Positions 19,525 through 29,521 of a stretch of DNA of 64,000 nt are shown here, piece by piece (the first letter of the stretch is position 1; each line of letters starts with the position of its first letter). The position numbers and the translations under genes were made by a program. Origin of the DNA: Gammaproteobacteria bacterium (lineage in GTDB: Bacteria; Pseudomonadota; Gammaproteobacteria; Pseudomonadales; Azotimanducaceae). Where the stretch lies: contig JAJFJZ010000002.1 in the NCBI GenBank assembly GCA_021773565.1, forward strand, positions 1-64,000, in the 5' to 3' direction. Below the pieces are notes generated by a model that was not told the DNA's origin, did no database searches, and saw only the letters and a list, made by a program, of their open reading frames with translations.

Positions 19525-22500
19525 CTACATGTTGCGCCGGTACTTTCCTCCCACTTGATACAGGGCGTCCGTAATTTCACCCAAAGTACAATGTCTAACG
19601 GCCCGTACCAATTCCTCAAATACATTGTCGTAATCAATTGCAGCTTGCTTCAGACGGTCCAGCGCGATGCTACTTTCATCTATATTTCGTGCTTTAAAAT
19701 CACGCAGGCGTTTTATCTGACTCTTCTTTTCAGAGTCTGTTGAACGCGCCAGTTCTATCTCCCTGTGTTCATCAGGTTCGGGATTTTCAAACATATTCAC
19801 ACCCACAATAGGTAAACTGCCATCGTGCTTTTTGTGCTCATAATACATGGATTCCTCCTGAATTTTTCCACGCTGGTACCCTGTCTCCATCGCACCGAGC
19901 ACGCCACCGCGTTCTGCGATGCGCTCGAACTCTTTAAGAACCGCTTCCTCCACCAAATCTGTGAGTTCCTCAATAACAAAAGCGCCCTGGGTAGGGTTTT
20001 CGTTTTTTGACAAACCCCATTCCCGGTTAATTATTAACTGTATGGCGATTGCACGTCGCACCGATTCCTCTGTTGGAGTGGTTACCGCCTCGTCATAGGC
20101 ATTGGTATGCAAGCTGTTGCAATTATCGTAATTACCTATGAGTGCCTGCAGCGTGGTACGAATATCATTGAACGACATTTCCTGCGCATGCAATGAACGC
20201 CCGGAAGTTTGCGCATGATATTTCAGTTTCTGGCCCCGCTCGCTGGCACCATATTTATCGCGCATCGCGATCGCCCAGATTCTGCGCGCCACCCTGCCCA
20301 GCACGGTATATTCAGGATCCATACCTATTGAAAAGAAAAATGACAAATTGGATGCAAAATCATCAATGTGCATGCCGCGTGCAAGGTAGGTTTCCACATA
20401 GGTAAAACCGTTAGCAAGCGTAAATGCTAATTGTGAAATGGGGTTCGCACCCGCTTCTGCTATGTGATATCCCGATATAGATACCGAATAAAAATTTCTT
20501 ACCTTGTTCGCCACAAAATAGGCCTGAATATCGCCCATTACTTTCAGACTGAACTCAGTAGAATAAATACAGGTATTTTGCCCCTGGTCTTCTTTTAGAA
20601 TATCGGCCTGCACCGTTCCGCGAACATTCTCCAGTGCATAGCTGTTTATCTCGTCCAGCTCCGCTGCATCAGGATCACGCTTATGTTCCAGCCGAAATTT
20701 CTCAGCCTGTTGATCCATTGCCACATTTAGAAACTGTGCCAGAATCGTAGGAGCGGGCCCATTGATGGTCATTGAAACCGAAGTCGCAGGATCACAGAGA
20801 TCAAAACCATCATACAAAACCTTAAGATCATCCAGTGTCGCAATGGATACTCCGGAGTTACCCACCTTGCCGTAAATGTCAGGCCGCTCATCAGGGTCTG
20901 TTCCATATAGCGTTACCGAATCAAATGCAGTGGACAGCCGCTTGGCCACTGCATGTTCAGACAGTCTTTTGAAGCGCTTGTTTGTACGAAAGGCATCCCC
21001 TTCACCCGCAAACATACGGGTAGGATCTTCGCCTTCCCGCTTAAAGGGAAATACTCCGGCCGTAAAGGGGAATCTTCCCGGAAGGTTTTCCAGCAGCATC
21101 CACTTTAACAAATCACCATGATCTTCATACTTTGGTAATACCACCTTGGGCAAACGGGTTCCCGAAAGGCTGGTGGTAGTGAGCGCTGTGCGAACTTCAC
21201 GCGAACCCGAAGTGCTTACATATTCATCCCCTGAATAACTTTCCTGCGTTTGGGACCAGCCGTCCAGCAAGCTACGCAAGGCGGGTTCACTGCGTGCAGT
21301 ACGCGCTTCAATCAAGGCATCCAGGCTGGGCGTTGTATTGTCTCCCAACATTCTGGCACTGGCTTGCAGTTGCTGCATTTCCCGCGCCAATGTGGATTGC
21401 TCTCGCACACGCTTGTGATAGGCGCGTATATCATCGGCAATCTCCGCAAGGTAACGTGCCCGCGCTGCAGGCACAATGACGGCTTCACCGGTGGAACACC
21501 GGCCCTGGATTACAGGCAACCTGCCTTCTACCTGTTTTAACCCCAGCGTACACAAGACCTTTACCAAACCCTGATACAGGGCAGTTACACCATCGTCGTT
21601 GAAGTGCGAGGCAACCGTTCCATAAACTGGCATCTGGTCGGTAGGTGTATCGAAAGCTTCCCTGTTTCGTTGCACCTGTTTTGCGACATCACGCAATGCG
21701 TCAGGACCGCCACTACGCTCAAATTTGTTTATTGCCACCAGATCTGCAAAGTCCAGCATATCAATCTTTTCCAGCTGGCTGGCTGCACCAAAATCGGGTG
21801 TCATTACATACAGGGAACAGTCCACGAAAGGCACTACACCAGCATCTCCTTGCCCAATACCCGGTGTTTCGACAACTATAAGATCAACGCCAGACAATTT
21901 GGCGACATCTATAATAGTGCTCAGGTGCGCGGGAACCTCTGTAAGGGTTGAACGCGTGGCAATAGAGCGCATAAAAATATTATCGCTCTCGATTGCATTC
22001 ATGCGTATGCGGTCTCCCAGCAAAGCCCCGCCTGTTTTGCGACGCGTCGGGTCGATTGCAATAATGCAAATTTTCAGGTCATCATCGTAATCCAGTCTAA
22101 AGCGGCGAATCAGTTCATCCGTTAGCGAAGATTTACCGGCCCCGCCTGTTCCGGTAATGCCCAGTACGGGTACCGCTTGCTCAAGTGCTGCAATGGATGT
22201 TGCCAGTTTCGCCTGATCTGCTTCGCTAAAACTGCTATTTTCAATTGCAGTAATTCTGCGTGCCAGTTCTGACCATTTGTCAGTATTCAGTTTTTGTTCG
22301 CTGGTCTGCTTAATTTGTGCCGGATCAAAACGACAGTGAGAAACCATGTCCTCGATCATGCCTTTAAGGCCCATTTTTTGACCATCTTCAGGCGTATAAA
22401 TACGCGCTACACCGTAGTCTTCCAATGCTTTCACTTCCGAGGCAATGATCACGCCGCCACCACCGCCAAATACACGAATATGTTCTGCACCACGCTCTTT

Positions 22501-22782
22501 CAACATATCCAGCATGTATTGAAAAAACTCGATATGGCCACCCTGGTATGAACTTATAGCAATTCCCTGCACATCTTCCTGGATGGCTGCATTCACGATT
22601 TCCTGCACGGAACGGTTGTGTCCCAAATGAATTACTTCAACACCAAGACCCTGCAAAATTCGCCGCATTATATTGATGGCAGCATCATGGCCATCAAACA
22701 GGCTTGCTGCGGTTACAAAACGCACCGGTATAGTTGTGTCCTGATCTGTTGTAGTGCTGATACTCGTTACGGCTGTACTCAT
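19525..22782 (-). CDS. icmF: Fused isobutyryl-CoA mutase (IcmF), B12-dependent with built-in G-protein chaperone
   Basis: 1085 aa. Domain order: B12-binding domain (about 20-150; FDGHDAA with His32 as cobalt ligand), MeaB-like GTPase (about 200-420; P-loop GTGGAGKSS at 211-219, NKFE at 352-355), and the TIM-barrel mutase domain (about 540-1085). The active-site residues that separate isobutyryl- from methylmalonyl-CoA mutases are Phe591 (MFAGEG) and Gln735 (GQNTC) rather than Tyr and Arg, so isobutyryl-CoA/n-butyryl-CoA (or pivalyl-CoA) isomerisation is favoured. The start overlaps the TetR gene by 4 bases. Adenosylcobalamin can be supplied by the adenosyltransferase at 26348-26935. Confidence 0.95.
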
Positions 22783-26347: not shown

Positions 26348-26935
26348 CTACCTGGAACCGGGTCGCTTAATGCTGCCCTTTTGTTGCCAGATCACCTCTT
26401 CTTTCCCTTCAGCAACGATTACATAACGCGAGAGCACGAACAGGAAATCGGAAAGCCGATTTATAAACTGTACTGACACGGGGTTTACCGGGTCTTTCTC
26501 TATCAGGGCAAACATCAGCCGTTCTGCGCGTCGGCAACAGGTTCTGGACAGATGGACCTGGGAGGCACAGTTGCTACCCCCAGGTAAGACAAAGTTCTTC
26601 AGAGGTTCAAGCGTATCGTTTATCAAATCAATGTGTTGCTCTACCAGGGTAACATCATCTTCATCAATCAGCGTACTCCCGGGAATGGCCAATTCGCCCC
26701 CCAAATCGAACAGAGTGTGTTGTAAACCCGATAAATAGTTTTTTGCTTTTCCAAGCTTTTCATCACGTTCTGCAGGCAATACGCTAATTACCGCACCAAC
26801 CCAGGAATTCAGTTCATCTATGGTGCCAATAACATCCATGCGCATCGCAGACTTTTTTATGCGTGTGCCATCAGCAAGCCCCGTTTCTCCCTTATCCCCT
26901 GTTTTGGTATATATTTTGGATAGCCTGAAACCCAT
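26348..26935 (-). CDS. Cob(I)alamin adenosyltransferase, PduO type
   Basis: 195 aa. The N-terminal KIYTKTGDKGETGLADGTRIKKS is the ATP-binding signature of PduO/MMAB enzymes. DELNSWVGAV and the LSRTCCRRAERLM helix with its conserved RTxCRRAER pattern complete the active site. It makes adenosylcobalamin from cob(I)alamin and ATP and loads it onto mutases; icmF 3.6 kb away is the obvious client. It is divergent to the candidate selenoprotein gene. Confidence 0.95.
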   Translation of the reverse strand: MGFRLSKIYTKTGDKGETGLADGTRIKKSAMRMDVIGTIDELNSWVGAVISVLPAERDEKLGKAKNYLSGLQHTLFDLGGELAIPGSTLIDEDDVTLVEQHIDLINDTLEPLKNFVLPGGSNCASQVHLSRTCCRRAERLMFALIEKDPVNPVSVQFINRLSDFLFVLSRYVIVAEGKEEVIWQQKGSIKRPGSR

Positions 26936-27035
26936 AGGTAATTCCTGTGTGCCTTGAAAGAAGTAATATTAACCCTGTCGCTTTCACCTTAATAGTTGGA
27001 TAAAGTTAAGCTGATCCAGTTAAAAGGTGCACCAA

Positions 27036-27833
27036 GTGGCAGACCAGATAGCCAATATCATGCCTGATTCACCCGTCAAGTATATAGACAGAACCCGAGC
27101 CTACTATTTGTCCCAGGGCTTTCCCACACCCTACGAATGGGCCCAAAATACGGACATACCGTTTACGCAGACAGCCAAACCGGTAGCAAAATCCAGGCTC
27201 GCGCTCATTACCACTGCAACACCTGTAGACACGATTGGTGAAAAACGCCAATTACACATAAGAGCCACAAGACCCTTGCCTGAAAAAATGCATACCAATG
27301 ACCTTGCATGGGACAAGGAAACAACACACACCGACGATCTTGACTCTTTTTTTCCCATGCAGCATCTGTTGGACATGCAACACAGTAAGCGCATAGGTTC
27401 AATTGCCCAGCACTACTACTGCGTCCCTACCCTGTTTAGCCAGAACCATACCTGTACGGTTGATGCACCCAACATTCTGGAGGGGCTGCGCGCAGACCAT
27501 GTTGACATCGCCCTGCTGGTGCCTCTGTGACCTGTTTGTCATCAAACCGTGTGTTTGACTGCAAGACATCTGGAAGCTAATGGTATTGCCACAGTAATCA
27601 TCGGTTCCGCACTGGATATTGTGACCCATTGTGGCGCGCCGCGATATTTGTTTACCGACCTGCCACTGGGAAATCCCTGTGGTGTGCCTTACAAGCCCGA
27701 TATGCAAAAAGACATTCTTCATCGCGCATTAATGCTGTACGAAACGGCAACAAAACCGGGAACCGTGGAAAATACACCACACCAGTGGCCGGGAAATCCC
27801 GATTGGCGTGCTACCTATGCACGTGTAAAGTAA
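27036..27833 (+). CDS. Candidate selenoprotein of the glycine/sarcosine/betaine reductase B (GrdB) family, read through in-frame UGA
   Basis: Reading from GTG 27036 (AAAAGG eight bases upstream) the frame is open to a UGA at 27528-27530 and then, in the same frame, to a TAA at 27831-27833, giving 265 aa with the UGA at residue 165. The residues after UGA, PVCHQT, place the UGA at the first position of a UxxC redox motif. The downstream part (LTARHLEANGIATV, CGAPRYLFTDLPLGNP) is as family-like as the upstream part (PVKYIDRTRAYYLS). A stem-loop starts 11 bases after the UGA, with its loop after 17 bases, as expected of a bacterial SECIS. Selenocysteine insertion is the best explanation; a nonsense pseudogene is the alternative. 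GrdB-family members outside amino-acid reductase operons have no settled function. Confidence 0.78.
27531..27563 (+). promoter_or_regulatory. Putative bacterial SECIS element
   Basis: Directly after the UGA, a 6-bp perfect stem TCAAAC (27542-27547) with GTTTGA (27553-27558) closes a loop CGTGT containing the G/U bases expected in SelB-binding loops. Outside two mismatches the pairing continues with TGT and GCA. Seventeen bases separate the UGA from the loop, the same as I count in E. coli fdhF. A competing 5-bp hairpin, GTTTG with CAAAC (27533-27547), is possible. Confidence 0.65.
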
Positions 27834-29074: not shown

Positions 29075-29521
29075 CTATTCGGCTATAATTTTCTTGATAA
29101 ATTCGATGTGACTACCTGCAAAGAGATCAGAGACTACCCTTTGCGCGATTCGTCCATCCTTATCGATTAGGAAAGTAACACGTCGTACGCCTATCCCCAA
29201 CGGGCCGTTTACGCCATATGCGTCAATGAGTTTTTTCCCTGCGTCATGCACAAGCGGAAACGGTAGCGCATAACGGTCCTTAAACCGTTTATGGGATTCC
29301 TCACTCTGGGGGCTAACACCAACTACTCGCATGCCAACACTGCTAATATCCGAATAGATATCCCGGATTCCACATGCTTCCTTTGTGCATACTGCTGTGA
29401 AATCTGCAGGATAGAAATACAAAATCAGAGGTCCGTCCTGCAACAGCTCACCCAATGACTGCGTGTCACCCTGCTCGTTGACTAAATCAAACGAAGGCGC
29501 CTGGTCTCCTCTTGCTAACAT
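29075..29521 (-). CDS. Peroxiredoxin, Bcp/PrxQ type
   Basis: 148 aa. The thioredoxin-like fold carries the peroxidatic cysteine in PADFTAVCTKEACGIRD; a second cysteine five residues later is the intramolecular resolving cysteine of PrxQ/Bcp enzymes. Pro and Thr of PxxxTxxC and the conserved Arg in IGVRRVTFLID complete the active site. It reduces hydrogen peroxide and lipid peroxides using thioredoxin. Located between rsgA and an MFS gene on one strand. Confidence 0.93.
   Translation of the reverse strand: MLARGDQAPSFDLVNEQGDTQSLGELLQDGPLILYFYPADFTAVCTKEACGIRDIYSDISSVGMRVVGVSPQSEESHKRFKDRYALPFPLVHDAGKKLIDAYGVNGPLGIGVRRVTFLIDKDGRIAQRVVSDLFAGSHIEFIKKIIAE

Follow-up and report, generated by a model that had tools for sequence, protein, structure and literature searches.

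Does a frame of the window, by which we mean the whole 64,000-nucleotide stretch of DNA analysed here, encode a selenoprotein across a single in-frame UGA, and what would such a protein do? A sequence-only reading had taken the frame for a hidden selenoprotein of the GrdB family. With this gene, one can ask in a single-gene case what these bacteria gain from selenium. Here, we follow the frame, its homologues, its putative partners and its marine relatives.

The interrupted frame and the selenocysteine machinery

Between the GTG start and the TAA stop (27831–27833), translation gives exactly one in-frame stop, a TGA as residue 165, and the codons directly 3′ of it read PVCHQT. The single interrupted frame and the UxxC motif claimed earlier are thus both borne out (Table 1). 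Elsewhere in the window, TGA is used as an ordinary stop. Counted over both strands, open frames with 250 codons or more end in TAA, TAG and TGA 13 times each.

Standard gene calling would split the gene in two. The pieces expected with translation table 11 come to 167 and 94 aa, close to the 164 and about 95 residues foreseen from the sequence. The read-through protein has PrdB as its best NCBIfam model with 71 bits; taken alone, the 3′ piece scores 37 and the 5′ piece 11 bits. Because the PrdB match spans the read-through frame and the homologues keep the UGA, the frame is more than chance.

The true start codon may be GTG 27036 or ATG 27060. An AAAAGG stretch at 27022–27027 lies upstream of the GTG. 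The ATG is aligned with the starts chosen for the homologues, a weak pointer because the start-picking script preferred starts that gave about a preset length. The product is predicted at 29.8 kDa from the GTG and at 29.0 kDa from the ATG, and either agrees with the mass of about 29 kDa proposed before.

Table 1. Coordinates of the features at the locus, in the genome of the window (G000) and in related genomes; positions without a contig or locus name are those of the window.
Feature	Location	Strand	Remark
PrdB-like selenoprotein CDS	27036..27833	+	GTG start, TAA stop, 265 aa with Sec165
In-frame UGA (selenocysteine)	27528..27530	+	opens U-P-V-C-H-Q; UGA conserved, Cys in two others
Alternative ATG start	27060..27062	+	
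5′ piece expected from automated annotation	27027..27530	+	
3′ piece expected from automated annotation	27549..27833	+	
SECIS-like hairpin	27542..27558	+	UCAAAC(CGUGU)GUUUGA, 6 pairs, loop 17 nt after UGA, G second in loop
Fused isobutyryl-CoA mutase IcmF	19525-22782	minus	
PduO-type cobalamin adenosyltransferase	26348-26935	minus	
Peroxiredoxin-like gene	29075-29521		
selA	G000 C11:116690-118039		over family cut-off
selB	G000 C11:118072-119943		over family cut-off
tRNA-Sec (selC)	G000 C11:120004-120092		anticodon tca
selD	G000 C12:295182-296105		over family cut-off; in-frame TGA
Second PrdB-like selenoprotein gene	L039 9230-10162 (G000:C8)		
Genes of the apparent GrdA, GrdE-type and GrdB set of G016	L152 1495-2745 and 155-1489	minus	
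PrdB-like homologue of G057	L150 6429-6947 onward		UPVCNQ
Loci with HpcH/HpaI aldolase-like gene	L070, L071, L080, L082, L087, L093, L094, L095, L118, L128, L130, L136		

The genome of the window is a draft assembly of 4.23 Mb with an estimated completeness of 98.4%. The selenocysteine machinery, suggested as a check of the selenoprotein claim, is all there: selA, selB, selC and selD each score over the family cut-off, and selA-selB-selC are consecutive on one contig. The selD gene has a SECIS-like hairpin after its own UGA at the same 17-nt spacing as the window gene.

At least one homologue occurs in 33 of 58 genomes, namely that of the window plus relatives. In this set selA is found in 32 of the 33 genomes with a homologue versus 6 of the 25 without (Fisher p 3e-9, relatedness uncorrected). 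In three of the 32, selA is found only as fragments below the cut-off, and the sole exception, G028, is 85% complete.

In G057, a homologue lies next to selA in divergent orientation, and the set to which they belong has tRNA-Sec at its end. The gene between selA and the tRNA would be selB, judged from its position. This set is a possible link between the PrdB-like family and the selenocysteine machinery.

The conserved UGA and the hairpin behind it

The homologues examined all have UGA at this place or, in two cases, Cys, the replacement that the sequence-only reading had proposed to look for. Of 31 sequences from the related genomes, among them the window gene and a second copy in the same genome, L030 has Cys and the other 30 have U. 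In the GTDB genomes, U is found in 79 of 80 loci and Cys in Bradyrhizobium pachyrhizi (L091). These loci are the best 80 of at least 590 relatives from an alignment-based search of the genome contigs, and partly overlap with the related-genome set.

A single-protein query of the same contigs found no relative, unlike the alignment-based search. The source labels of the best 80 of at least 590 include Gammaproteobacteria, Alphaproteobacteria, Deltaproteobacteria, Myxococcales, Candidatus Binatia, Chloroflexota, Acidimicrobiaceae and others. The sources are mostly metagenome bins, and some of the taxon labels look unreliable.

Further stops do not pile up among the listed matches, where G003:C134 is the one with two TGA and only G027:C181 is without an internal TGA. 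In the tree, the two Cys forms do not group together: each has Sec forms beside it, with sister supports of 0.917 and 0.777, which suggests that the change from Sec to Cys happened twice independently.

Behind the UGA lies a SECIS-like hairpin, to which the general rules of SECIS loop and spacing were applied. We compared a stretch of 48 bases, beginning at the UGA, position by position and gap-free, counting the U of UGA as 0, in 109 UGA sequences that collapse to 99 distinct stretches. The seven pairs from 13-31 to 19-25 are standard in 94.1% of the cells of these 99. Slid partners give 15.4–48.3% as a control, and 200 synonymous-codon reshuffles reach a mean of 64.6% and a maximum of 69.0%.

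The inner six pairs are all formed in 83 of the 99, versus at most 12 of 99 in the reshuffles; at least one inner pair is missing in the other 16 Sec forms. At position 21, which is the second base of the loop when the loop has five bases, 98 of the 99 have G. A cruder hairpin scan scores 10 or more at 98% of the 109 true places versus 32% of control places. Rfam at the gathering threshold gave no match in the window and is uninformative on SECIS.

The hairpin covaries. Double changes from G-C to A-U occur, the window gene among them: its pair 17-27 is A-U, against G-C in 77 of the 99. The seventh and outermost pair of the window hairpin is A-C and is not formed. For the Cys forms, L091 lacks one of the seven pairs and L030 two, a weak signal given these small losses that hints at hairpin decay after Sec loss.

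Could the frame be a pseudogene or a sequencing error, its UGA an ordinary stop? The window copy has the shortest stretch from Sec to the end among 111 sequences (101 residues versus a median of 130). Its terminal branch, of length 0.78, ranks fifth in length among the 111. Against decay, the UGA and the hairpin are kept across many lineages, the window stem carries the A-U pair where most have G-C, and all 23 residues that are invariant elsewhere are retained. We find a dead or misread gene scarcely credible.

By the machinery in the genome, the UGA conserved or replaced by Cys and the covarying SECIS-like hairpin, the interrupted frame very probably encodes a selenoprotein, and the earlier claim is sustained in this respect.

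The same genome has a second PrdB-like selenoprotein gene, 36% identical. Its product ends in C-x-x-C-I-W, and the gene has a SECIS-like hairpin of its own, whose loop has three bases.

Relation to PrdB and GrdB and their partner subunits

An alignment (A1) of 30 rows includes the window protein, taken from ATG 27060. The homologue L026 has undetermined bases and is out of A1, and is kept in the counts for the hairpin, the tree and the UGA in related genomes. The TIGR04483 (PrdB) and TIGR01918 models match all 30 rows at E <= 0.01, and Pfam GRDB matches 13 of the 30.

The window protein is homologous with the D-proline reductase PrdB over model positions 25-234 of 238 and shares Sec in UxxC, but its score is 71 bits against an equivalog cut-off of 300. 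It similarly falls below the cut-offs of PF07355 GRDB (13.7 versus 22 bits; 15.8 for the 5′ piece alone) and TIGR01918 (22.6 versus 65.45 bits).

To the GrdB of G016, the likeness covers the C-terminal half: hhalign aligns the window-type family there with a probability of 98.7%, Sec over Sec. The window protein is without the N-terminal half of GrdB. It is also without the STUG motif, named at the Sec of GrdB in a passage of PMC10838667; it reads VPLUPVC at the Sec whereas the GrdB of G016 has STUGTC.

The window protein is, as judged by these profile comparisons, a distant homologue of PrdB and GrdB, nearer to PrdB than to GrdB. The GrdB-family assignment thus survives as distant homology, and fails as membership by the three cut-offs, the missing STUG motif and the want of any detected partner.

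In profile searches the genome of the window gave no match to GrdA (PF04723), GrdE-type (PF09338) or PrdA. PF09338 and PrdA match in 1 of 58 genomes each, both on the same gene of G016, and 32 of the 33 homologue-bearing genomes have no match to the GrdE-type or PrdA models. GrdA was searched in the window's genome and G016 and found in the latter.

The PrdA model has no match in 14 control genomes, and matches the GrdE-type gene of G016 at 1.2e-7, so relatives of PrdA are detectable. Since the GrdA, PF09338 and PrdA models each give a match in G016, the searches can find such genes.

G016, a same-family relative, carries an apparent set of GrdA, GrdE-type and GrdB (STUGTC) genes (L152, L153; G016:C195). 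Its GrdB scores 555.7 bits with TIGR01918, the GrdE-type gene adjoins it and the GrdA gene is near on the same contig. The best model for the GrdE-type gene is the sarcosine subunit GrdG, below its cut-off. The Sec region of this GrdB has weak similarity to the UGSC family (seleno)protein NF041046, which is not among the NCBIfam matches of the window protein at E <= 1.

A true subunit of D-proline or glycine/sarcosine/betaine reductase, acting together with a pyruvoyl partner like those of clostridia, would fit the choice of PrdB as the best model, which reaches 1.8e-50 as the best E among the A1 rows. Such genes are also labelled proline reductase PrdB in passages of the marine surveys. This reading runs against the score far under the PrdB equivalog cut-off, the lack of any PrdA, PF09338 or GrdA match in the genome and the confinement of PF09338 and PrdA to G016 while homologues occur in 33 genomes. 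We consider it very improbable.

The AlphaFold2 model (mean pLDDT 92) predicts a Rossmann-like alpha/beta domain. Sec157, in the numbering from ATG 27060, lies between strand 150-154 and helix 158-173. Residues invariant in the 30 A1 rows include Y16, Y25, D93, S127, Sec/Cys157, C160, H161 and Q162 and further R169, E172, R195, Q216 and W249; 23 residues show no variation in the other 29 rows, and the window protein keeps them all.

Searches for structural relatives returned little: phmmer against the PDB gave four matches with a best E of 0.2 and no convincing relative, a profile search for solved structures gave none at E <= 1 and Foldseek gave no match at E <= 0.001. Kinship by fold was considered and dropped, as the 50 rows shown by VIA-align 2 are generic Rossmann-like and periplasmic-binding folds, which are common (best Z 8.7).

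Neighbouring genes, proposed chemistry and marine relatives

No general operon partner appears in the 18 related-genome loci and the 80 GTDB loci (the best 80 of at least 590). An HpcH/HpaI aldolase-like gene lies directly downstream in 12 loci, all within one clade of 14 (support 0.999), and 11 of these 12 also have a hydrolase-like gene upstream. The HpcH gene is named by Pfam in L070 and by clustering in the others, and the hydrolase name is a reading of its sequence. The HpcH/HpaI aldolase-like product seems to start with a signal peptide. PADLOC gave no match.

The nearest-neighbour scan covered 126 of 146, with 20 from ten of these loci omitted and genes of more than 700 aa or less than 150 aa omitted earlier. 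The 25 commonest families include AMP-binding enzymes of the acyl-CoA ligase type (6 of 126), short-chain dehydrogenases (4 of 126) and luciferase-like monooxygenases (4 of 126). Their catabolic flavour is only a hint, because the frequencies come without a background comparison.

These three neighbour families would suit a selenolate-dependent cleavage of an activated C-X bond (halide, amine or thioether) in a catabolic intermediate, loosely FarB/FarE-like. A passage of PMC10838667 puts forward a GrdB/GrdE-like pair for cleavage of the C-F bond in fluoroacetate. But FarB pairs with FarE and no PF09338-type gene was found in the genome of the window, and the neighbours are diverse, so that we regard such cleavage as unlikely.

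Another candidate role is the reduction of peroxides or disulfides, as a selenoprotein of the general UxxC kind. The UxxC at the predicted strand-to-helix junction and the want of a general neighbour would agree with it, as would the peroxiredoxin-like gene nearby, which scores below the family cut-offs and comes with no evidence of conserved linkage. Against it, the matches shown include no thioredoxin or peroxiredoxin relationship, and the other invariant residues (Y, D, S, R, W) suggest a specific substrate. We think this role improbable too.

A Schiff-base step is described for glycine and sarcosine reduction in a passage of PMC10838667, and also belongs to the knowledge on the family. As no pyruvoyl-type partner was found, this step could not run in its usual form, and a stand-alone reductase is therefore favoured. 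Likewise, the pyruvoyl-dependent glycine or D-proline reductase reaction is not expected of the window protein because neither the pyruvoyl-type partner nor GrdA was found. The protein could have a partner of another kind, unrelated to PrdA, GrdE and GrdA.

We propose that the gene encodes a PrdB-like selenoprotein that is probably a stand-alone UxxC selenol-thiol reductase. SelB and Sec-tRNA would decode the UGA with the aid of the hairpin, a part suggested by its conservation. Sec would thereby be placed at the predicted strand-helix junction, with the likely resolving Cys three residues on (U-PV-C-HQ).

The selenolate would attack a small organic substrate at an electrophilic atom, and the Se-S bond to the UxxC cysteine would close to a selenenylsulfide intermediate. 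A general thiol donor, for example thioredoxin or glutathione, could then reopen it. This putative redox role rests on the family chemistry.

UxxC selenoproteins of the PrdB type are already reported, in passages of earlier papers, to be abundant in marine metagenomes. There, PMC1088965 (2005) gives 42 Sec 'proline reductase PrdB' genes with UxxC from the Sargasso Sea, and PMC2398784 (2008) gives 235 Sec versus 110 Cys forms of 'proline reductase PrdB' in GOS. According to passages of a 2021 survey (PMC9402790), proline reductase makes up 6.4% of the marine selenoprotein genes.

In other passages, a 2026 review (PMC13188914) enters D-proline reductase under TIGR04483 with UxxC. Passages of PMC5029168 place the Sec proline reductase in 110 organisms and describe Sec users as aerobic as well as anaerobic, and one of PMC1794560 places it in several, mainly anaerobic bacteria.

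The marine 'PrdB' of the Sargasso and GOS passages and the window protein have UxxC and PrdB-type homology in common, a likeness by description rather than sequence. Those passages assign the family the D-proline reaction or only the name, and partners go unmentioned in them. Our literature search, with subscription papers outside its scope, found no published account of a stand-alone PrdB-like family.

We lean slightly towards the view that the marine "proline reductase" selenoproteins include, or largely are, a separate U-PVC-HQ family. It would have no pyruvoyl subunit or GrdA, act as a stand-alone selenium-dependent reductase and keep its Sec across many proteobacterial and other lineages. 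If the family members lack a reductase partner, the 'proline reductase' label misleads inference on marine proline metabolism.

Divergent to the selenoprotein gene in the window is a PduO-type cobalamin adenosyltransferase gene, and further left of the latter is that of a fused isobutyryl-CoA mutase IcmF. The two are perhaps a B12-related pair.
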